Source: Fimbriimonadaceae bacterium (GTDB taxonomy: Bacteria; Armatimonadota; Fimbriimonadia; Fimbriimonadales; Fimbriimonadaceae). From it: a DNA stretch of 63,096 nucleotides. Positions 12,744 to 27,210 of the stretch are shown one piece after another. The stretch is from positions 1-63,096 of the forward strand of contig JAHBTB010000014.1 in assembly GCA_019638795.1 (NCBI GenBank). The letters are read 5' to 3'. The stretch's first letter is position 1. Every line of letters begins with the position of its first letter. The position numbers and the translations under genes are program-made. Under the pieces are notes generated by a model. The model saw only the letters and a program-made list of their open reading frames with translations. It searched no databases and was not told the origin of the DNA.

Positions 12744-15922
<3,179 letters not shown>

Positions 15923-16402: not shown

Positions 16403-18099
16403 CAGGCCTTCACCTTCTCTTTGGTGGTCAAGGCCGGGTCCATGATCAGGCTGTCGTTTGACGCGCCTGCAGCGACCATCGGGAAGACGTTCTCTTCCAT
16501 CTCGACCACGCACTCGACCAGGACGGGGCCTTCGATGGCCCGGGCTTGGCGGACGGCCTCGTCCATGTCCGCTTGCTTGGTCACGCGGACGAACCCGACG
16601 CCGTAGGCCTCGGCCAACTTGCCGAAGTCGGGGTTTGGCATATGGGCGTGGCTGTAGCGGTTGTCATAGAAGAGTTCCTGCCACTGCCGGATCATGCCGA
16701 GGAAGCCGTTGTTGATCAAGGCGATCTTCACCGGCAACTTGTGCTCTGCCGCGACGATCAACTCCTGTAGGGTCATCTGGAACCCACCGTCACCGACCAC
16801 GCACCAGACCTCGGCGTCCGGCCTGGCGAACTGGGCGCCCATCGCCGCCGGCAAGCCGTAGCCCATCGTGCCGAGACCGCCGCTGCTGAGCCAGTTGAAC
16901 GGCTCGTGGAACTTGTAGAACTGGGCCGCCCACATCTGGTGTTGGCCCACGTCTGTGCTGACGACGGCGTCGCCTTTGGTGACGCGGTTGAGGGAGTCCA
17001 CGACGTGCCGGGCGAGGAACCGGCCGTCCTCAGGGACGATGAGCGGGTAAGCCTCGCGCCAGGCGCGGATCTCGGCCCACCATTCGGGGTGCTTGGCGGG
17101 CTTGACCGCCTTCGCGAACCGCGGAAGCGAGTCGGCCAAGTCCCCGAGGACCCGGCAGTAGGCGGGGATCGCCTTCCCGAACTCGGTGGGGTCGATGTCG
17201 AAGTGGATCTTGCGGGCGTTGGGGGCGAACCCGCTCATCTTGCCCGTCAGGCGGTCGTCGAACCGCATGCCGACGCCGATGACGAGGTCGGCGTGCTGGG
17301 TCGCGATGGTGCCGGCCGCTTCGCCGTGCATGCCCATCATGCCCAGGCTGCGCGGGTCGTCACGGTCGAACGAGCCGAGACCCAGGAGCGAGTTGATGAC
17401 GGGGACGTCGGCCTTTTCCGCGACTTCGGCCAGGGCCTTGTGGGTCGCCGACCAGACGACACCGGCCCCCGCGATGATGACGGGGCGTTCAGCCGAGGCG
17501 AGGAGCTCGGCGGCCTCGTCGATCGCCTCCTGTTTCGCCGGGCCGGGCAGGAGGTAACCGCGGCGTTGGGTCACCTCGGGGAAATCGACGTCCGTCTTGC
17601 CCTGGAAGACGTCCTTGGGGATGTCGATCAGGACTGGGCCCTTGCGCCCGGTGTTGGCCAGATAGAAGGCCTCGGCCATGACGCGAGGCAGGTCGTCGAC
17701 GTCGGTCACCAAGTAGTTGTGCTTGGTGATCGGGATCGTGATGCCCTGGATGTCGGTCTCTTGGAAGGCGTCGGTGCCGATCGCCCAGGTGCTGACCTGG
17801 CCGGTGAGCACGACCATGGGGACCGAGTCCATCATCGCCGTCGCGATGCCCGTGACCAAGTTGGTCGCGCCAGGGCCGCTGGTGCCCAGGCAGACCCCGA
17901 CCTTGCCGGTCGCCCGGGCGTATCCGTCGGCCATGTGGGCCGCGCACTGCTCGTGCCGCACCAAGACATGCTTGACTTGCGGCCAATTCAACATTTCGTC
18001 GTAGAGGGGCAGGACGACGCCGCCTGGGTAGCCGAACATCACGTCGACCCCATGGCGCGCCAGCGCCTCCATCACCACCGTGGCTCCTGTTCGTGTCAT
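16402..18099 (-). CDS. ilvB: Acetolactate synthase large (catalytic) subunit
   Basis: TPP- and FAD-dependent enzyme of 565 residues condensing pyruvate with pyruvate or 2-oxobutanoate. The N-terminal GYPGGVVLPLYDEM region and catalytic Glu in VRHEQCAAHMADGYARATG are present, as is the C-terminal TPP/Mg motif GDGGFQMTLQEL ending in ALINN. First structural gene of the ilv operon. It is preceded by about 180 nt of transcribed leader holding an attenuator, so expression should respond to branched-chain aminoacyl-tRNA levels. Confidence 0.98.
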   Translation of the reverse strand: MTRTGATVVMEALARHGVDVMFGYPGGVVLPLYDEMLNWPQVKHVLVRHEQCAAHMADGYARATGKVGVCLGTSGPGATNLVTGIATAMMDSVPMVVLTGQVSTWAIGTDAFQETDIQGITIPITKHNYLVTDVDDLPRVMAEAFYLANTGRKGPVLIDIPKDVFQGKTDVDFPEVTQRRGYLLPGPAKQEAIDEAAELLASAERPVIIAGAGVVWSATHKALAEVAEKADVPVINSLLGLGSFDRDDPRSLGMMGMHGEAAGTIATQHADLVIGVGMRFDDRLTGKMSGFAPNARKIHFDIDPTEFGKAIPAYCRVLGDLADSLPRFAKAVKPAKHPEWWAEIRAWREAYPLIVPEDGRFLARHVVDSLNRVTKGDAVVSTDVGQHQMWAAQFYKFHEPFNWLSSGGLGTMGYGLPAAMGAQFARPDAEVWCVVGDGGFQMTLQELIVAAEHKLPVKIALINNGFLGMIRQWQELFYDNRYSHAHMPNPDFGKLAEAYGVGFVRVTKQADMDEAVRQARAIEGPVLVECVVEMEENVFPMVAAGASNDSLIMDPALTTKEKVKA

Positions 18100-18218
18100 G
18101 TGTTTGCTCCCGGCCCGGCTTTGGGCGGGTTGTCCGACGGCGGTGTCGGGTGTCGCGCTCTCCTATTTTTCCTTCTGACCTTAGGGGAGGACGGCGATGT
18201 CCCTACCCCCAAAGCAGA

Positions 18219-18280
18219 ACGGCCCTCCCGGTTTCCCGGGAAGGCCGTCCTTGAAGATTTTCGTCTGTCAGCTTCCCGGG
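18219..18280 (-). terminator. ilv attenuator: terminator hairpin and competing antiterminator
   Basis: Terminator stem ACGGCCTTCCCGG (18248-18236), loop GAAA, CCGGGAGGGCCGT (18231-18219): 13 pairs with one G-T, followed by TCTGCTTT. Immediately after the leader-peptide stop, CCCGGGAAG (18280-18272) is a perfect complement of CTTCCCGGG (18243-18235) in the terminator's 5' arm, so the two structures exclude each other. A ribosome at the stop codon would cover the first copy and allow termination; one stalled upstream on Leu/Val/Ile codons would leave it free to antiterminate. The uridine tract is weak. Confidence 0.82.
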
Positions 18281-18406
18281 TCACGCTCTGGTAATAAGAA
18301 CGAGGACGAGAAGGCTGAGGAGGGCCAGGACGTCGAGGCGCAAAACCGCACCACCAGCCAAGTCGGCGGCGGGCAGCGTCAGCGCGCGGACGTCGTGTCG
18401 CTCCAT
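18281..18406 (-). CDS. ilv operon leader peptide (Leu/Val/Ile-rich)
   Basis: Open frame of 41 residues starting MERHDVRALTLPAADL and ending in a branched-chain run, LALLSLLVLVLITRA, directly before the attenuator. It is too short for most ORF calls. The run uses CTG, CTC, CTT, GTC, GTT and ATT codons, so charging of Leu, Val and Ile tRNAs would all matter. ATG at 18406 is 12 nt after a perfect TATAAT. The frame opens further upstream (to 18514), but those starts precede the promoter. Role is inferred from architecture matching enterobacterial ilv leaders. Confidence 0.8.
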   Translation of the reverse strand: MERHDVRALTLPAADLAGGAVLRLDVLALLSLLVLVLITRA

Positions 18407-18418
18407 CAGGTTGCGAGG

Positions 18419-18424
18419 ATTATA
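18419..18424 (-). promoter_or_regulatory. -10 box of the ilv leader transcript
   Basis: Perfect TATAAT on the minus strand in the gap between the dioxovalerate dehydrogenase stop (18448) and the leader peptide start (18406). No convincing TTGACA-like -35 is visible. Placement makes the ilv operon a transcription unit separate from the hydroxyproline operon upstream. Confidence 0.65.
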
Positions 18425-18447
18425 CCCACATCCGAACCACGTGGACC

Positions 18448-20058
18448 TCATGTCCCATGCACACCCGGGATTCTCACCGGGTCGTGGGTGAGCCGGCCGT
18501 CGACTTTCCTCCATATGTGCAAGGGGTTGCGGTCATGCAACTCCTCGGGAAGGAGTTCGGCGGGCATGTCTTGGAAACAGACGGGGCGCACAAACCGCAG
18601 GACCGCGGCGGTGCCGACCGAGGTCGTCCTCGCGTTGCTGGAGGACGGGAACGGCCCGCCATGTTGCATCGCGGGGCAGACTTCCACGCCGGTCGGGAAG
18701 CCGTTGTGGACGACACGTCCGGCCTTGCGCACAAGGAGGGGAAGGAGCTCCCGGACCTCGTCCGTCACCGTCCCTGCTGTCTGCAGGGTCGCGGTGAGTT
18801 GTCCTTCCAGGTTCCGGGCGACCCGCTTCATCTGGTCAAAGGTGTCGCAAACGACGACCAATCCAGCCGGGCCGAACACCTCTTCGCCAAGGGTGTTGTC
18901 GCTGAGGAACGTCTCGGCCCGGGTGGTGAAGAGGCTCGGCGCCGCCTGCCCCGTCCCCTGGGTGCCGCTGAAGACGGTCTTGACGTCGGGATGGCCGGCC
19001 AGACGGTGGGTACCGGCCTGGTACGCGTCGGCGATACCGGCCGTCAGCATGGTCCCGGGAGCCACTGCGGCCAGGGCCGCGGCGGTTTCGACGACGAACC
19101 GCTCCAATTCTTCGCTGACGACGCCGACCACGACCCCGGGGTTTGTGCAGAACTGGCCGACCCCCTGCGCCAGTGAGGCGGCGTAGCCCTTGGCGACGTC
19201 CGGCATCCGCACCCCGAATCCCGGCACCAGAAAGACGGGGTTGACACTCCCCATCTCGGCGTAGACGGGGACGGGGTTGTCCCGGTCGGCGGCGAGGCGC
19301 ATGAGCGCCCTTCCGACCGCCTGCGACCCCGTAAAGGCCACGGCCTGCGTCATCGGGTGGGTGACAAGGCGCTGGGCTGTCGTCACGTCGGTGTGGAGGA
19401 GAGAAAAGGTGCCCTCCGGCATGTCGGACTCTCGACAAGCCTCGATGACCGCCCGGCCCACCATCTCACTGGTGCCCGGGTGGGCAGGATGCGCCTTGAA
19501 GACGACCGGACACCCCGCCGCCAGGGCTGAGGCGGTGTCTCCGCCCGCCACGGAAAAGGCGAGGGGGAAATTACTCGCGCCGAAGACGACCACTGGTCCG
19601 AGGGGGACGAGAATACGGCGGAGGTCGGGCTTGGGCGCCGGCTTCCGGTCGGGCTGGGCAAGGTCGATGACGGCCTCCGGCCACGACCCTTCGCGGAGCA
19701 AGTTGGCGAACAAGCGGAGTTGGCCGGTCGTCCGGGCGCGCTCGCCCACAAGTCGCGCGGTAGGCAGCGCCGTCTCCTCGGCGCAGCGTCCGATGAGTCC
19801 GTCGCCCAAGGCGTCGATCGCGTCCGCGACCCTGTCCAGGAACGCGGCCCGGTCGGCCTGGCTTACCCGGCCGTAGGTCTCGGCGGCCCGGTCAGCCAGG
19901 GTCAAGGCGCGCTCGACCTCACTGGTCACCGCAAGAGAGAACGCTGGGTCAAGGTGGGAGCCGCTGGCCGGGTTGAACCCGCGTAGCGTCCGCTCCCCCT
20001 CGGATGACTCCGCGAACCCGACTAATTGGTTACCCGTCAACACCATCCGCTCCTTCAT
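18448..20058 (-). CDS. 2,5-dioxovalerate (alpha-ketoglutarate semialdehyde) dehydrogenase
   Basis: Aldehyde dehydrogenase of 536 residues resembling alpha-ketoglutarate semialdehyde dehydrogenases. Motifs: VVFGASNFPLAFSVAGGDT (cofactor region), FTGSQAVGRAL, AEMGSVNPVFL (catalytic Glu region) and GQFCTNPG with the catalytic Cys. It oxidises the semialdehyde to 2-oxoglutarate, the last step of 4-hydroxyproline catabolism, and the three enzymes encoded just upstream supply the earlier steps. ATG at 20058 (MKERMVLTG) overlaps the upstream stop as ATGA; the second ATG at 20046 is possible. The same enzyme family also serves pentose and glucarate routes. Confidence 0.92.
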   Translation of the reverse strand: MKERMVLTGNQLVGFAESSEGERTLRGFNPASGSHLDPAFSLAVTSEVERALTLADRAAETYGRVSQADRAAFLDRVADAIDALGDGLIGRCAEETALPTARLVGERARTTGQLRLFANLLREGSWPEAVIDLAQPDRKPAPKPDLRRILVPLGPVVVFGASNFPLAFSVAGGDTASALAAGCPVVFKAHPAHPGTSEMVGRAVIEACRESDMPEGTFSLLHTDVTTAQRLVTHPMTQAVAFTGSQAVGRALMRLAADRDNPVPVYAEMGSVNPVFLVPGFGVRMPDVAKGYAASLAQGVGQFCTNPGVVVGVVSEELERFVVETAAALAAVAPGTMLTAGIADAYQAGTHRLAGHPDVKTVFSGTQGTGQAAPSLFTTRAETFLSDNTLGEEVFGPAGLVVVCDTFDQMKRVARNLEGQLTATLQTAGTVTDEVRELLPLLVRKAGRVVHNGFPTGVEVCPAMQHGGPFPSSSNARTTSVGTAAVLRFVRPVCFQDMPAELLPEELHDRNPLHIWRKVDGRLTHDPVRIPGVHGT

Positions 20059-21302
20059 GAAAACCGCGCCGGCAAGGCCGGATGCAGGTCGAGCGACGTC
20101 GAGCGACCTTGCAACATCTGGGACACCACCAAACCTGTGGCCGGCCCCAGACTCATCCCCATCATGGCATGGCCGGTGGCCAAGACGAGGTTCTTCCACC
20201 CTGGCACTGGGCCGATCACGGGCACGCCGTCGGGCGAACAGGGCCGCAGACCCTGCCAAACGCCATCGTCCCGGAACTCGACCCCGCGGTACGCCGGGTA
20301 GAAGCGTCGGGCCCCTTCTCGAATGCCGCGGACCCGCGCCCAGTTGGTCGACGACAACGACCCGCCGATCTCCATGGTCCCCGAGAACCGGGTCCCGTCG
20401 CCGAGGGGCGCCACGGCCACCCGGGCGCCGACGAGGATTGACGGCACCCTCGGCCGGACGGGAGGGTCGTCGACGACAAAGCTGTATCCCTTGCCGCTGA
20501 CCAAGGGGGTGTGGTGCCCCGCCAATCGGGCGACCGCACCGGACCAGACGCCTGCCGCTATGACGAACGAGTCGGCTTCGTGGCGTCCGGTCTCGGTCAC
20601 GCAGGCCAGGACGCGGTCGGAGGCAAGCTCGAAGTCCACGACCTCTTGACCGTACAGTAGCTTCGCTCCTGCGCCGGTCAAGTGGCGGTGGAGTGACCAC
20701 AGGGTCGAGACGGGGTCGACGTGGGCGTCCCCACGGTAGTGGTATCCCCCGGCGACGTCGGGCAGGGCCTCGGGTTCGAGGGCATGGACTCCCTCGCGGT
20801 CGAGCGTCTCGACTTCCTGGCCCAGCCGCCGGGCCAGGTCGGCGGTGGCCCGGTCATGGCCCATCGACGCTTGGTCAAGGTGCAGTTCAAGGAGGCCCGT
20901 CCTCTCGAAGCGCAGCCCGCCGACCCGGCCCTCGAGGTCGGCATACAACTCGCGGCTGAGGGCGTTGAAGGCGTTCAAGAACGGCGCGGCCCGCTCGACA
21001 TGGCTCCTCGTGCACGACCGGACGAACTGCGCCGTCCACGAGACGAGTTCCCAACTGAACTGCAAATGGATCCCAAACGGGCTCGACCGGTCGAGGAGCA
21101 TCCGCAGGCCCAGTTGGACCATCCCTGGTGCGGCCAGGGGCACGATGTGACTGGGCACGACCATGCCGGCGTTGCCCCAGGAGCACGGCTTTCCGTCCTC
21201 CGGCCCGCTCTCCAATACGGTCACGTCAAGGCCGGCGTCCAGGCAGTAGAGCGCGGTGCACAGCCCGATGATCCCGCCGCCGATGACGACGACACGCGCC
21301 AC
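20055..21302 (-). CDS. FAD-dependent D-amino-acid dehydrogenase (probable D-hydroxyproline dehydrogenase)
   Basis: DadA/DAAO-fold flavoenzyme of about 415 residues. The N-terminal FAD motif is RVVVIGGGIIGLCTALY; the C-terminal FAD contact is in TGHAMMGMSLGPATG. Placed between hydroxyproline epimerase and the dehydratase/deaminase, it most likely oxidises cis-4-hydroxy-D-proline to pyrroline-4-hydroxy-2-carboxylate. GTG at 21302 lies just after the epimerase stop and puts the Rossmann strand at the N-terminus; ATG at 21341 would add 13 residues and overlap the upstream gene by 38 nt. Confidence 0.88.
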   Translation of the reverse strand: MARVVVIGGGIIGLCTALYCLDAGLDVTVLESGPEDGKPCSWGNAGMVVPSHIVPLAAPGMVQLGLRMLLDRSSPFGIHLQFSWELVSWTAQFVRSCTRSHVERAAPFLNAFNALSRELYADLEGRVGGLRFERTGLLELHLDQASMGHDRATADLARRLGQEVETLDREGVHALEPEALPDVAGGYHYRGDAHVDPVSTLWSLHRHLTGAGAKLLYGQEVVDFELASDRVLACVTETGRHEADSFVIAAGVWSGAVARLAGHHTPLVSGKGYSFVVDDPPVRPRVPSILVGARVAVAPLGDGTRFSGTMEIGGSLSSTNWARVRGIREGARRFYPAYRGVEFRDDGVWQGLRPCSPDGVPVIGPVPGWKNLVLATGHAMMGMSLGPATGLVVSQMLQGRSTSLDLHPALPARFS

Positions 21303-21303
21303 G

Positions 21304-22236
21304 TCAGGGGATCCCCCATTTGAACGGGTCTTCTTCGTCAATGACGACGACCCCCTCGCCTACGACGTGGGCCCGGCCGGTGATCGCGGGCACGACCCGC
21401 CCGTCGACGACCCGGTATCGGGCCTCGAACACGCTCCCGACAATGCTCTCTTGCCGCCAGACTTGGCCAGGGGCCAATTTGCCCGAGGCCGCCAAGCAGG
21501 CGACCTTGGCGCTGGTGCCGGTGCCACAGGGGCTCCGGTCGTACTCCATGCCGGGGCAGAGGACGAAATTGCGGCTGTCGGCGACCTCGCTCGGGCCAAA
21601 AACTTCGACGTGGTCGATCTGGGCGCCGTCGTCTCCCGTCACGCCTTGGTCGTCCAGGGCGCGGCGGACGTCGCCACAAAAGGCTTGCAACGCGGCGATG
21701 TTGGCCCTCTCGACGGGGACAGGAGAGTCACCGACAAGGAAGAACCAGTTTCCTCCGTAGGCGATGTCGCCGGTCACGATGCCGTGGCCGGGCACATCGA
21801 TTTCGACTCCCGTGCGGGCGCACCAGCAGTGGACGTTGTCGAAGCAGACTTGACCGTCGGGGAGCAGCCATGCGGCCACCGGCCCGGCCGGGGTCAGGAG
21901 GTCGATCCGCCCGACGTCGACCCGGCCAAGGTGCCGGAGCGTCTCGACGATGCCGATGGTCCCGTGGCCGCACATCCCCAAGTAGCTGGCGTTGTTGAAA
22001 AAGACGACCCGCCACGCCTCCGACCCTTGGGTCGGGGGCCACAGGTAGGCCCCGACGACGACGTCGGAGCAGCGGGGTTCACCGACGACGCTCCGCCGGA
22101 CATTGTCATGTTCCGCCGCCAACCACGCCCTCGCCGCCACCATGTCCGATCCTTTCAGCGAAGGCTGGCCGCCGACCACGGCACGTGTCGGCTCGCCGCC
22201 GGTGTGACTGTCGACGATACGGATCGGAACGGGCAT
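21304..22236 (-). CDS. 4-hydroxyproline 2-epimerase (proline racemase family)
   Basis: Protein of 310 residues from the proline racemase superfamily. Both catalytic acid/base cysteines are present: C89 in LGMCGHGTIG and C237 in DRSPCGTGTSAK. Two cysteines indicate a racemase or epimerase, whereas the related trans-3-hydroxyproline dehydratases carry Thr at one site. In this operon it should convert trans-4-hydroxy-L-proline to cis-4-hydroxy-D-proline. Start ATG at 22236, 9 nt after the DapA-like gene. Confidence 0.93.
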   Translation of the reverse strand: MPVPIRIVDSHTGGEPTRAVVGGQPSLKGSDMVAARAWLAAEHDNVRRSVVGEPRCSDVVVGAYLWPPTQGSEAWRVVFFNNASYLGMCGHGTIGIVETLRHLGRVDVGRIDLLTPAGPVAAWLLPDGQVCFDNVHCWCARTGVEIDVPGHGIVTGDIAYGGNWFFLVGDSPVPVERANIAALQAFCGDVRRALDDQGVTGDDGAQIDHVEVFGPSEVADSRNFVLCPGMEYDRSPCGTGTSAKVACLAASGKLAPGQVWRQESIVGSVFEARYRVVDGRVVPAITGRAHVVGEGVVVIDEEDPFKWGIP

Positions 22237-22245
22237 GGTCAGGCC

Positions 22246-23142
22246 TCAGAGGGTAGGACGCTTGGCGACGCCTTCGCGGACCACACGCAACGTCTCCTCG
22301 CGTTCGGCGCCGGTCAGGTTCAGTCGCGGTGGACGCACCGTCTCCTTGCCGAGACCGACTTCCTGCAGGCACAGCTTGATCTTCTGGACGAACTTCGGGC
22401 CGATGTCCAGGTGCAGGAGCGGCGTGAACCATCGGTACAGCTGGACCGCTTCGTCCCATCGGCCCGCCATGGCGAGGTCCCACAGCCGCTGGTTCTCCTT
22501 GGGGAAGGCGAGCCCGACCCCGGCGATCCAGCCCTTGGCCCCGAGCAGGGCGCACTCAAGGATCAGGTCGTCGACGCCGCCCATGATGACGTACCGGTCG
22601 CCGAGCCGGTTGACGAGGTCGGTGACGCGGCGCGGGTCGCCGCTGCTCTCTTTGGTCGCCTGGAACTTCGGGTCGTCGGCCAACTCTTCCAGCATCGCCG
22701 GGGTCACATCGATCTTGTAGGCGATGGGGTTGTTGTAGACGATGATCGGCAGGTCGGTGGCCTTGGCCACGGTACGGTAATGGGCGACCACTTCGCGGTC
22801 GTCGGCCGGATACACCATCGCGGGAAGCACCATCAAACCGGTGCAGCCGGCCCGGGCGGCCTCTTCGGCATGGCGGACCGCCTGCGACGTGCTGAACTCG
22901 CTGACCCCGCTGACCACGGGGACCTTGCCGCCGCAGACTTCGACGGCCGCCCTCAGGACGGCGACCTTCTCGTCGGGCTCGAGCATGTTGTTCTCCCCCA
23001 GGGAGCCCAGCATGACGACGCCCTGCACGCCCGCGTCGACAAGGACCTCCAGATGCCGCTTCGTCGCGTCAAGGTCAAGGGAGAGGTCGTCGTGGAACTG
23101 GGTGGTGACGGCGGGGTAGACGCCGTGGAAGAGCGGGCTCAT
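22246..23142 (-). CDS. DapA-family aldolase, probable pyrroline-4-hydroxy-2-carboxylate deaminase
   Basis: Protein of 298 residues with the DHDPS/NAL TIM-barrel fold. The Schiff-base lysine is K164 in FQATKESSGD and the conserved Tyr is Y136 in IVYNNP. In hydroxyproline operons this family dehydrates and deaminates pyrroline-4-hydroxy-2-carboxylate to alpha-ketoglutarate semialdehyde, fitting its position between the epimerase/dehydrogenase genes and the semialdehyde dehydrogenase. A true lysine-pathway DapA is less likely from context. It starts 4 nt after the GH127 stop. Confidence 0.87.
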   Translation of the reverse strand: MSPLFHGVYPAVTTQFHDDLSLDLDATKRHLEVLVDAGVQGVVMLGSLGENNMLEPDEKVAVLRAAVEVCGGKVPVVSGVSEFSTSQAVRHAEEAARAGCTGLMVLPAMVYPADDREVVAHYRTVAKATDLPIIVYNNPIAYKIDVTPAMLEELADDPKFQATKESSGDPRRVTDLVNRLGDRYVIMGGVDDLILECALLGAKGWIAGVGLAFPKENQRLWDLAMAGRWDEAVQLYRWFTPLLHLDIGPKFVQKIKLCLQEVGLGKETVRPPRLNLTGAEREETLRVVREGVAKRPTL

Positions 23143-23146
23143 CGCA

Positions 23147-25486
23147 TTAGTCCTCGTCCTCGACCGGTTCGACGCGCCATTGCAGGACGCCGGCCGCGTA
23201 GCCTTTCTTCATCTGCACGACCAGGCGGAGTCCCGTGGTGCTCACCGGGAGGAAGTGCACAGTATTCCATGAATCCTTTGATGTTAAATAGTTTTGGGTC
23301 GTTTTGACGGGTACCCATCGGCCGTCTTGCTGGGCCTCGACATGCCACGACTCCGGCAACCGGCAGACGCCGGCGCCCGTGTCGTCAAACCAATAGACCT
23401 GGCAACCCTTGACGGCCTGCGGCTTGTCCCAGGTGTAGCTGACCCACTCCCGGGTGCCCTCGTGGTTCCACCAGTGCGCGGTCAGGGCGCCCTTGTCCGC
23501 GCTTGACTTGGGCTCGCGGCCGTCACGGACACCCTCGGGCTGGCAGTTCCAGTTGACAAACGACATCGCGACCGTGGCGGCGCGCTCGGGCCCACCGACG
23601 ACGGGCGGCGCAGGCTGGGTGGGGACCCAGACTTCCATTTCACCGGCAGAGCGGTGGTCCCACGCGTAGTAGGGGACAGCGCGGACCTTGACCGGGGTGG
23701 GTCGGGCAAAGTCGGCGTAGAGGCCACCCGGCCACGTCTCACCCCGCCGCACCACGCCCTGGGTGGTCAGGGCGACGACGCCGCCCACCAAGCTGTCGTC
23801 CCACGTGGACTCGAACTTGGCCCCGGCCGGAACGGCGACCCCGTCCAAGCCCTCTTTGTTGTCGGCCTTCTCCAGGCAGTAGACGAGCGGGCCCCGGGCG
23901 ATCGCGAGGCGTCCGGTGTTCTGCTTGACCCGGGGGTCGGCCTCGATCTGACGGGCCGCCATGTGCAGGTCGAGCGAGACCGAGTCACCGGCATTGAGCC
24001 GTCGCTGGACTTTGACGTAACCGTCTTTTCCTGGCATGACCTTCTTGCCGTCCACGGTCGGGGCCGACGACCATGCCGGGATGCGGAGCCACACCTCCTT
24101 GTCCGTGGGTTTGTCTGCGGTCACGACCACCTTGCCGTCCCAGGGGTAGTTGGTCACGACCCGGAAGGCGACGTCGTCGGAGCCGACCTTGGCCTTGACC
24201 GACCCCGCCACGTACAGGTTGACGACGAAGGCCTGGGGGGTCGTCGCGTAGGCGTAGCCCCCTATGCTGGCGACCATACGCGAGGCGTTAGGCGGGCAGC
24301 AGGCGCAGCTGAACCATTCGGTGCGGTGGTGCCCCCCTTTGCTGGCCAGGGGGTTCACGTAAAAGAACTTGGTGCCGTCCCACGAGTAGCCCGCGAGCAT
24401 CCCGTTGTAGAGCGACGACTCCATGTTGTCAAGGTAGTGGGAGTCGCCGTAGAGCAGACCCATCCGGAACGACCACAGGGCCATGGCGACGCTGGCGCAC
24501 GTTTCCTGGTAGGCGGTCTCGTTGGGCAGGTCGAAGTCTTCGGTGAAGCCTTCGTTGCTGGCGCTCGGTCCGATACCGCCGGTGACGTACTGCCGCCTCC
24601 GGGTGGTGTTGCGCCAGACGCGGCGGAGGGCGGCCTCGATCTCGGGCTCGCGGGAACGGGCGACGATGTCGGTCGCCCCGGCCAGGAGGTACCCGCAGCG
24701 CACCGCGTGGCCCTCCATGACCTCAAGGTCCTTGATCGGCACCCGGTCTTGCCAATACGTGCCGTCATAGTCCTTCGCCGGTGTCTTGTGCTCAGTGGCG
24801 AAGAAATGGCTCCCGCGGGTCTCGATGAAGAACTTGGCGAGGTCAAAGTACTTGCGCTGGCCGGTGGCGTCGGCCAGCTTCACCAGGCCGAGTTCGATCT
24901 CCGGGTGCCCGGGGTATCCCGCCCGCTTTCCGGGGCCGAAGGTGGCGTCGATATGGTCGGCCAGCTTGACGGCGACGTCAAGGAAGGTGCGCTTGCCCGT
25001 GGCCCGGAAGTGGGCGACCGCCGCCTCAAAGAGGTGGCCCGCGCAGTACAGTTCGTGGTTGTCCCTCAGGTTAGTGAAGGTGCGGTCGGGTTCGTTGACC
25101 TCGTAGTGGGTGTCCAGGTAACCGTCGGGCCGCTGGGCGCGGCGGATCACGTCGATCCACTTGTCGAGTTCGGCCTCAAGCGCGGGGTCGGCGGTGACGG
25201 TGAGCGAATAGGCGACCGCCTCCAGCGACTTGTAGACGTCTGAGTCCATGTAGACCGGGCCGCTGTAACCGGTACGGCTGCCTTCGGCGGCGAGTTCGAA
25301 GTTCTTGAAGTTGCCGGCCTTTCTCAGCATGTCCAGGCTGTGGCGCAAGGTGACTTGGCGGTTGGTTTTCTGGCGAGGCGCCCAAAAGGTGTCGGTGATC
25401 TTGACCTGGTTGAAGGGAACCGGGGTCATGTTCACGTGGGGGGGAGTCGAGGCAATGACGGCGCCAAGGCCCATGGCTAAGACCAT
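23147..25486 (-). CDS. GH127-family beta-L-arabinofuranosidase, exported
   Basis: Protein of 779 residues with a signal peptide (about residues 1-18). The (alpha/alpha)6 catalytic domain carries the HypBA1-type zinc/thiolate site: E328-T-C330 in AYQETCAS and C394-A-C396-C397 in WFSCACCPPN, matching the Glu-x-Cys and CxCC pattern of characterised GH127 enzymes, which use a cysteine nucleophile. Beta-sandwich domains follow and the last 140 residues look like a discoidin-type module. Known members remove L-arabinofuranose from hydroxyproline-linked beta-L-arabino-oligosaccharides of plant extensins. It is the first gene of the operon, 4 nt before the DapA-like gene. TAAGGT lies 6 nt before the ATG. 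Confidence 0.93.
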   Translation of the reverse strand: MVLAMGLGAVIASTPPHVNMTPVPFNQVKITDTFWAPRQKTNRQVTLRHSLDMLRKAGNFKNFELAAEGSRTGYSGPVYMDSDVYKSLEAVAYSLTVTADPALEAELDKWIDVIRRAQRPDGYLDTHYEVNEPDRTFTNLRDNHELYCAGHLFEAAVAHFRATGKRTFLDVAVKLADHIDATFGPGKRAGYPGHPEIELGLVKLADATGQRKYFDLAKFFIETRGSHFFATEHKTPAKDYDGTYWQDRVPIKDLEVMEGHAVRCGYLLAGATDIVARSREPEIEAALRRVWRNTTRRRQYVTGGIGPSASNEGFTEDFDLPNETAYQETCASVAMALWSFRMGLLYGDSHYLDNMESSLYNGMLAGYSWDGTKFFYVNPLASKGGHHRTEWFSCACCPPNASRMVASIGGYAYATTPQAFVVNLYVAGSVKAKVGSDDVAFRVVTNYPWDGKVVVTADKPTDKEVWLRIPAWSSAPTVDGKKVMPGKDGYVKVQRRLNAGDSVSLDLHMAARQIEADPRVKQNTGRLAIARGPLVYCLEKADNKEGLDGVAVPAGAKFESTWDDSLVGGVVALTTQGVVRRGETWPGGLYADFARPTPVKVRAVPYYAWDHRSAGEMEVWVPTQPAPPVVGGPERAATVAMSFVNWNCQPEGVRDGREPKSSADKGALTAHWWNHEGTREWVSYTWDKPQAVKGCQVYWFDDTGAGVCRLPESWHVEAQQDGRWVPVKTTQNYLTSKDSWNTVHFLPVSTTGLRLVVQMKKGYAAGVLQWRVEPVEDED

Positions 25487-25492
25487 CCCTGC

Positions 25493-25526
25493 ACCTTACC
25501 GCGGGAGGCCGGGGACCGGCTATCAT
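25493..25526. promoter_or_regulatory. Divergent promoter region, GH127/hydroxyproline operon versus aldose epimerase
   Basis: The 51-nt gap between divergent starts at 25486 (minus) and 25538 (plus) contains TAAGGT on the minus strand (25498-25493, 6 nt before its ATG) and TATCAT on the plus strand (25521-25526, 11 nt before its ATG). Neither gene has an SD, so both mRNAs may be leaderless, and any regulator bound here could control both units. Confidence 0.5.
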
Positions 25527-25537
25527 GCCATGCCCCG

Positions 25538-26563
25538 ATGACCTTTGAGCCCACTCCTTTCGGCACGTTGCCCGACGGCCGTCCTGCGACTCTGTATACC
25601 CTCGACAATGGTCGGGGCCTGAGAGCGTCGCTGACCGACTACGGCGCCACCCTGGTCGATCTTCAGACCCCCGACCGCGACGGGAAGTGGGGGAGCGTCG
25701 TCCTCGGCTACCCCGATTTGGCGGGGTACATCGACGGGAAGTGGTACCTGGGGGCGGTATGCGGGCGGTTTGCGAACCGGATCGCGGGCGGCGCGTTCAC
25801 CCTCGACGGGCGACGGCACCAACTCAGCGTCAACGAGGGCGCCAACCATCTTCACGGCGGTGCCCAGGGGATTGACCGGTCGTTGTGGCGGGCCCGGCAT
25901 GTCCGTCGCGACCGGGTTGTCTTCGAACTGACGAGCCCCGACGGCGACCAAGGGTATCCGGGCAACCTGCGGGTCCGCGTCACCTACACCCTGACCCCGA
26001 GCAACGCGCTACGGCTGGAGTATTGGGCCGCGACCGACAAGGCGACGCCGGTGAACCTGACCCACCACGCTTATTTTAATCTCGCTGGTGCCGGTCCGGT
26101 CGGGGAGCACCGCCTGGCCGTGCGGGCCTCACGCTACCTCCGCACCGGTGAAGGCAGCATTCCCACCGGAGAGACTCTGCCCACCCGGGGCACCCCCTTT
26201 GACCTGGGGCACGGCACGACCTTGCGGGAACGCATGGCGTCCGACCATCCGGAGGTCAGGGCGGTGGGGGGAATTGACCACTGCTATGTCTTGGACTTGC
26301 GTCGCTTTGGCCTCGCCGCGGTTCTTGACGACCCGGCGAGCGGCCGGGTCATGAGGGTCTTCACCGACCTGCCCGGGCTCCAGGTCTACACGGGCAACTT
26401 TCTGGACGGGAAGCTCTTTCCCCGTCACGGAGCGGTCTGCCTGGAGACCCAGCGGTTCCCCGACTCGCCAAACCATGCGCACTTTCCCGACACGGTGTTG
26501 AGGCCGGGCCAGAAGTTCCGCAGTGTCACCGAGTATCGGTTCAGCCTGGGGGCGGGACGATGA
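25538..26563 (+). CDS. galM: Aldose 1-epimerase (galactose mutarotase)
   Basis: Protein of 341 residues that interconverts alpha and beta anomers of free sugars. Conserved GRFANRI, catalytic His in NLTHHAYFNL, the HCYVL segment and the C-terminal catalytic Glu in VCLETQRFPDSPN are present. No signal peptide. Divergent from the GH127 operon, so it may process released L-arabinose as well as hexoses (inference). Its stop overlaps the rnhC start as ATGA. Confidence 0.93.
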   Translation: MTFEPTPFGTLPDGRPATLYTLDNGRGLRASLTDYGATLVDLQTPDRDGKWGSVVLGYPDLAGYIDGKWYLGAVCGRFANRIAGGAFTLDGRRHQLSVNEGANHLHGGAQGIDRSLWRARHVRRDRVVFELTSPDGDQGYPGNLRVRVTYTLTPSNALRLEYWAATDKATPVNLTHHAYFNLAGAGPVGEHRLAVRASRYLRTGEGSIPTGETLPTRGTPFDLGHGTTLRERMASDHPEVRAVGGIDHCYVLDLRRFGLAAVLDDPASGRVMRVFTDLPGLQVYTGNFLDGKLFPRHGAVCLETQRFPDSPNHAHFPDTVLRPGQKFRSVTEYRFSLGAGR

Positions 26564-27210
26564 CCGGCGGCCGGGTCGGTGTCGACGAGAGTGGCAAAGG
26601 CGACTACTTCGGGCCCCTCGTCATCGCGGCCTGTTACGTGGACCCGTCCCTCGACGCGGAACTGGAGGGGGTGAAGGACAGCAAGAAGCTGACCGACGAG
26701 GCGGCCTTGAGGCTGGACCCCGTGATCCGTCGGGTGTGCCCGTTCGCCGTCGTGCGCGTCGACCCGCCGAAGTACAACGAACTGTATGCCAAGATCGCGA
26801 ACCTGAACAAGTTCCTGGCGTGGGGGCACGCCCAGGCGATCGAGAACGTCCTCGCCAAGGTGGACTGTGACCTCGTCATCAGCGACCAGTTTGCGAACCC
26901 GGCCGGCCTCCAGCGGGCGTTGAAAACGAAGGAGAAGGCGCAGCATGTCCGGCTCATCAGCCGGGTGCGGGCGGAAAGCGACCTCGCCGTCGCGGCGGCC
27001 AGCGTTTTGGCCCGCGCCGAGTTCTTGCGCCGCCTCCGGTCCTTGGGCGACGAAGTGGGGATGGCCCTGCCCAAAGGAGCGGGCACCCAGGTCGACGACG
27101 CGGCGCGGCGGCTGGTGCGGGAGCAGGGCCGCGAGGTCTTGCCGACCGTGGCCAAGATGCACTTCAAGACGACCCAGAAGGTCTTGGGCGGCCAGGCTCC
27201 CCCGCTATAA
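26560..27210 (+). CDS. rnhC: Ribonuclease HIII-type (catalytic domain only)
   Basis: Type 2 RNase H of 216 residues that cleaves RNA in RNA-DNA hybrids. The start of the catalytic domain, VGVDESGKGDYFGPLVIA, has the GKGDYFGP signature of RNase HIII rather than HII; VKDSKKL and ESDLAVAAASVLAR supply the other acidic residues. Typical RNase HIII is near 300 residues with an N-terminal TBP-like substrate-binding domain; here the protein begins immediately at the catalytic core and that domain is absent. A separate rnhB occurs at 57.6 kb. Confidence 0.87.
   Translation: MTGGRVGVDESGKGDYFGPLVIAACYVDPSLDAELEGVKDSKKLTDEAALRLDPVIRRVCPFAVVRVDPPKYNELYAKIANLNKFLAWGHAQAIENVLAKVDCDLVISDQFANPAGLQRALKTKEKAQHVRLISRVRAESDLAVAAASVLARAEFLRRLRSLGDEVGMALPKGAGTQVDDAARRLVREQGREVLPTVAKMHFKTTQKVLGGQAPPL

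Follow-up and report, generated by a model that had tools for sequence, protein, structure and literature searches.

A GH127 gene heading a hydroxyproline catabolic gene row in Fimbriimonadaceae, a probable locus for arabinosylated hydroxyproline

Published catabolic clusters for trans-4-hydroxyproline (Hyp) group a 4-hydroxyproline epimerase (4HypE), DAAO, a DHDPS-family protein and an aldehyde dehydrogenase (ALDH); the paper describing them mentions transporters and peptidases, and makes no mention of glycosyl hydrolases, DUF1680 or words beginning with arabin- (PMC4113996). Hyp-derived arabinose chains are the substrate of the HypBA1/HypBA2/HypAA system of Bifidobacterium longum (PMC7263609, PMC10850190), whose GH127 enzyme has the same active site as the protein discussed here; in Bifidobacterium, a GH146 enzyme takes off the last Hyp-linked arabinofuranose (PMC10850190). 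Xanthomonas euvesicatoria encodes XeHypAA, XeHypBA2 and XeHypBA1, enzymes directed against hydroxyproline-rich glycoprotein arabinosides, adjacent to a broken prolyl oligopeptidase gene (PMC6085000), and for single-cell genomes of Latescibacteria, GH127 has been proposed to free arabinose from extensin Hyp (PMC4454575). Here we describe a five-gene row in which a GH127 gene leads the four Hyp families, found in a stretch of 63,096 nucleotides (the window) from a Fimbriimonadaceae bacterium of the phylum Armatimonadota (genome G000).

The five genes occupy the minus strand from 25486 to 18448 and encode, in order, a putative GH127 beta-L-arabinofuranosidase, a DHDPS-family protein (DapA), a probable 4-hydroxyproline epimerase (HypE), a D-amino-acid dehydrogenase (DAD) and an ALDH. 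From 5' to 3', the first four genes stand 4, 9 and 1 nt apart, and the last two overlap by 4 nt. Coordinates and Pfam assignments bear out an earlier reading made from the letters alone (the sequence-only reading), which had proposed five same-strand genes in this order with spacings of 9 nt or less. Each part of the row is ordinary, while the combination is unusual and recurs elsewhere. With moderate confidence, we read the five genes as one catabolic operon, presumably co-transcribed, for arabinosylated Hyp that stems from hydroxyproline-rich glycoproteins of plants or algae.

The leading protein (779 aa; 23147-25486, minus strand) matches PF07944 with 349 bits, PF20736 with 56 and PF20737 with 86. 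Its layout comprises a short hydrophobic N-terminus, an (alpha/alpha)6 catalytic domain, the GH127 middle and C domains, and an extra beta-rich domain at the C-terminus (about residues 630-779), for which the Pfam search returned no name. Aligned with HypBA1 (3wkw), it is identical at H142, Y145, H194, H270, R273, E322, E338, C340, C415, C417 and C418. Every catalytic and zinc residue checked is kept (the nucleophilic Cys, the acid/base Glu and the zinc site of three Cys and one Glu; E322, E338, C340, C417 and C418 in HypBA1 numbering), the E-x-C motif reading ETC and the CxCC motif CACC. H142, Y145, H194 and R273 belong to the HypBA1 substrate site and differ in GH146 (PMC10850190). The AlphaFold model (pLDDT 84) matches 4qk0/4qjy, 6ex6 and HypBA1, with sequence identities of 42% to Geobacillus Ara127N, 36% to BT3674 and 35% to HypBA1. 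The protein is thus a GH127 member nearer Ara127N and BT3674 than HypBA1, which refines the comparison with HypBA1-type enzymes made in the sequence-only reading. Activity on Hyp-arabinosides is probable. Export is likely as well: the N-terminus carries about 12 hydrophobic residues, and a similar segment stands in the sister species and in every orthologue checked. The positive n-region of a classical signal peptide is lacking in the window protein, and such positive residues are mostly lacking in the orthologues.

The four downstream genes match the families of the published 4-Hyp pathway, as had been claimed. The DHDPS-family protein (22246-23142, minus; PF00701, 178 bits) scores well under the cut-off of all its top NCBIfam models; a role as delta1-pyrroline-4-hydroxy-2-carboxylate deaminase is probable because its position beside HypE and DAD is kept in many genomes of the family. 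The epimerase (21304-22236, minus; PF05544, 287 bits) belongs to the two-Cys proline racemase family and contains both catalytic motifs, MCGHGT and SPCGTG, whose cysteines, like the GH127 site, the sequence-only reading had noted. Its best NCBIfam model is the 4-Hyp epimerase (383 bits against a cut-off of 442), with the proline racemase and trans-3-Hyp dehydratase models much lower; the closest solved chains are annotated as proline racemase family proteins. DAD (about 20055-21302, minus; PF01266, 222 bits) is a putative FAD-dependent cis-4-hydroxy-D-proline dehydrogenase whose top NCBIfam model is D-amino acid dehydrogenase and whose closest solved chains are glycine oxidases. Its start is placed by coding score at the GTG at 21302; an alternative in-frame TTG at 21341 would overlap the upstream gene. 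The ALDH (18448-20058, minus; PF00171, 139 bits) is a probable 2-oxoglutarate semialdehyde dehydrogenase: the best NCBIfam model is alpha-ketoglutaric semialdehyde dehydrogenase, far under its cut-off, and the closest solved chains are 3v4c, an NADP+ ALDH, and 1eyy.

Taken together, these assignments suggest the following route. GH127, probably extracytoplasmic, would remove beta-L-arabinofuranose from Hyp-O-arabinosides or Hyp-peptides. Once taken up, free trans-4-hydroxy-L-proline would be converted by the epimerase to cis-4-hydroxy-D-proline, which would be oxidised to pyrroline-4-hydroxy-2-carboxylate. Deamination would then yield 2-oxoglutarate semialdehyde, and its oxidation 2-oxoglutarate.

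The recurrence of the arrangement was followed through 291 Armatimonadota genomes, of which 254 contain PF07944 above cut-off and 98 a proline racemase match above cut-off. DapA, DAD and ALDH flank HypE in many of the 96 epimerase loci fetched, often in the window order, and counts of such flanks are lower bounds because several loci end at contig ends. Full-length orthologues of the window GH127 occur in about 32 of the 85 family genomes (46-83% identity). Three of them stand directly before DapA: the window gene, that of the sister species (G117), where gene order is identical and a tblastn match covers the 779 residues (locus L130), and that of G095 from genus g6. In G095, one strand carries GH127, DapA, HypE, DAD, ALDH, a LacI-type regulator and a terminal GH146-like enzyme nearest BT0349; here 130 nt separate GH127 from DapA, compared with 4 nt in the window genus. 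A fourth genome, G106, has GH127 about 8 kb from the Hyp genes on the other strand. Outside the family, G023 carries on one strand a GH127 gene (partial, since the fetched stretch ends within it), an M24 aminopeptidase P, a GH43 gene, DapA, a protein with an alpha-L-arabinofuranosidase C domain, and HypE. On a tree, the Hyp-linked GH127 proteins of the window genus, G095, G023 and Bacteroidota fall on separate branches; the L235 protein was entered as a directly translated frame. Conservation of the neighbourhood, which the sequence-only reading had named as a test of its claim, gives a mixed picture: it holds in the genus and in G095, and the pairing recurs in separate lineages, yet it fails for most of the family orthologues.

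Further Hyp operons are joined by transport genes. In G083, G144 and G093, a four-gene furanose ABC transporter of the YtfQ/R/T type opens the operon, its genes overlapping or lying no more than about 30 nt apart; elsewhere in the family, GH127 orthologues adjoin the same transporter type. The substrate of the transporter that precedes the Hyp operon (L083, L095, L113) may be an arabinoside, arabinose or hydroxyproline. We read these associations as evidence that the Hyp operon repeatedly acquired genes for handling arabinofuranosides and that the enzyme releases arabinose.

Comparable loci were found in Bacteroidota, where the GH127 relatives near Hyp genes have about 38% identity to the window protein. 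Flavobacterium aquicola has ALDH, HypE, DPPIV, DUF885, DAD, an amino-acid permease, GH127 and M61, followed by SusC/SusD, and Rufibacter psychrotolerans has HypE, DAD, DUF885, DPPIV, GH97, aminopeptidase P, GH127 and a GH51-like gene. In five more genomes of Rufibacter or Sabulibacter, the same strand carries HypE roughly 13 kb upstream, judged by coordinates only and assuming contig identity. In Flavihumibacter, a GH146-like gene directly follows HypE, with GH127 nearby; the epimerases of Flavobacterium and Flavihumibacter exceed the 4-Hyp epimerase cut-off. Larger samples were surveyed by tabulated coordinates and not by full neighbourhoods, and linkages in G453, G473, G298, G498 and others are known from coordinates only. 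Both families occur in 33 genomes of the Flavobacteriaceae sample, and in five of these a GH127 or GH146-like gene lies within 12 kb of HypE. Leaving out the ascertained genome, four linked genomes were observed against 0.32 expected, and in Cytophagales three, one of them with a GH127 fragment, against 0.61, where the expected values are rough Poisson estimates that assume random placement, were computed after the pattern had been seen and leave genome relatedness uncorrected. In G498, a GH127 fragment (C28:63049-63228) within an 84-aa frame is 68% identical to the Rufibacter enzyme; about 10 kb separate it from HypE, and it is perhaps a decayed copy.

Peptidases form another recurring element. 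Homologues of the S9 type stand beside many Hyp operons and were checked by Pfam in L069, L232 and L266. DUF885 recurs in Hyp loci of two phyla (L069, L113, L232, L266), and three of these loci have a DPPIV or aminopeptidase P gene next to it, which suggests a role in the breakdown of Hyp-peptides.

Several observations weigh against a dedicated operon for arabinosylated Hyp. The DHDPS/epimerase/DAD/ALDH core is common in the family, and most Hyp operons have no GH127, just as most of the roughly 32 GH127 orthologues lie away from Hyp genes. The window operon lacks a peptidase and any transporter for Hyp or peptides; a promoter and terminator scan performed no better than on shuffled sequence, so it gave no signal of co-transcription. 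The signal-like N-terminus of GH127 is short. The excess of linked genomes in Cytophagales is modest, and polysaccharide loci violate the random placement assumed by the Poisson estimate. GH127 also includes other activities, for example aceric acid hydrolase; that assignment was rejected for the window protein, which scores 451.6 bits with NF049879 against a curated cut-off of 950. Finally, neither an L-arabinose isomerase (araA) nor an arabonate dehydratase candidate was found in G000, which is 99% complete and whose sole IlvD/Edd protein adjoins ilvB/ilvC-like genes within the window.

One alternative is that the enzyme is a general beta-L-arabinofuranosidase, acting on arabinan, arabinogalactan proteins or side chains of rhamnogalacturonan II, that landed before an ordinary Hyp operon and shares its promoter and no joint substrate. 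The spread of PF07944 through the phylum agrees with this, as does the location of most orthologues, several of them in sugar operons. For example, G129 (L215, 5588-17599) combines araA, araB, araD, a YtfQ-like binding protein, a GH51-like gene, GH127 and a YtfR/YtfT-like transporter, and such company fits arabinose as the product of the enzyme. Shorter versions of this operon were noted in L204, L205, L208, L214, L216 and L217. A conserved 506-aa protein follows the GH127 orthologue by 48 nt in L200, L206 and L209; its L200 copy matched nothing in Pfam or NCBIfam. A chance landing sits poorly with the same GH127-Hyp junction in a second genus, and with the arabinofuranosidase, GH146-like or furanose-transporter genes that join Hyp operons of other lineages, Bacteroidota among them; we regard it as rather unlikely. 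Somewhat less likely still is an operon for free Hyp or Hyp-peptides of any source, animal collagen included, in which GH127 would be a minor accessory for occasional arabinosylated residues and the sugar would be discarded. The common glycosidase-free core, the S9-type peptidases and the missing arabinose pathway of G000 all accord with it, yet it leaves unexplained why GH127 is the first gene in two genera and why G095 has both GH127 and a GH146-like enzyme. It overlaps the arabinosylated-Hyp reading, the chief difference being the main substrate.

The sister species has an L-arabinose isomerase (67% identity to the probe), and in G000 the lack of araA together with a single ilv-linked IlvD/Edd protein means that no known L-arabinose route was detected; the search covered known routes, and others are possible. 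Sugar use by the window organism is hence unsupported, and with it the claim that sugar and amino acid alike are exploited; deglycosylation as a means of reaching Hyp is the safer reading. The oxidative L-arabinose pathway and the Hyp pathway share 2-oxoglutarate semialdehyde, so that the DHDPS-family protein and the semialdehyde dehydrogenase might serve arabinose, with both substrates converging on this intermediate. An IlvD/Edd-type arabonate dehydratase is required for the oxidative route, and across the family DHDPS and ALDH accompany HypE and not sugar genes. We consider it very improbable and rejected it on the ilv linkage of the only IlvD/Edd protein.

Neighbouring features add little. 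A divergent aldose 1-epimerase of the GalM family (25538-26563, plus strand; PF01263, 302 bits) had been thought to strengthen the unit; it is real and kept in the sister species (74% identity), and its membership is doubtful. It is weak support because it leads into a row of RNase HIII, pyrR, pyrB and pyrC-like genes. An Rfam search of window positions 17000-27000 returned nothing. A 722-aa frame at 12744-14912 (minus strand), after ilvB/H/C-like genes, combines the ATPase domain of an ABC transporter with a complete threonine dehydratase (PALP and C-terminal regulatory domains) and is kept in the sister species (L130, 949-3117).

A broader proposal, to which we give slightly less than even credence, is that several phyla separately built loci that fully dismantle hydroxyproline-rich glycoproteins by combining arabinofuranosidases (GH127, GH146, GH51) and proline-specific peptidases with the pathway from Hyp to 2-oxoglutarate. 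If so, plant extensin-type protein would be a source of both carbon and nitrogen. Extensins and related glycoproteins are parts of the plant cell wall, and a locus that couples the stripping of arabinose from Hyp with Hyp catabolism would account for the recycling of their protein part. It would also point to a testable niche for Armatimonadota and some Bacteroidota, and mark DUF885 proteins as candidate Hyp-peptide enzymes.

No paper coupling GH127 or an arabinofuranosidase with the Hyp pathway was found in the open-licence literature, in keeping with the earlier impression that the coupling had not been described; because only open-licence papers were covered, the resulting case for novelty is weak. 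The bacterial arabinoside systems of the cited papers are described for sugar recovery only. This applies to B. longum, for which the available sections describe no Hyp catabolic genes; the window operon has such genes and contains no GH121, GH43 or transporter gene. The Xanthomonas paper leaves a Hyp catabolic pathway unmentioned, and the accessible part of the Latescibacteria account describes no Hyp catabolic operon. The published trans-4-Hyp clusters, on the other hand, bring together the same four families with the same predicted chemistry, and the window operon departs from them in having GH127 as its first gene. It is best regarded as a variant of the known trans-4-Hyp catabolic cluster, most likely one that feeds on Hyp-arabinosides.

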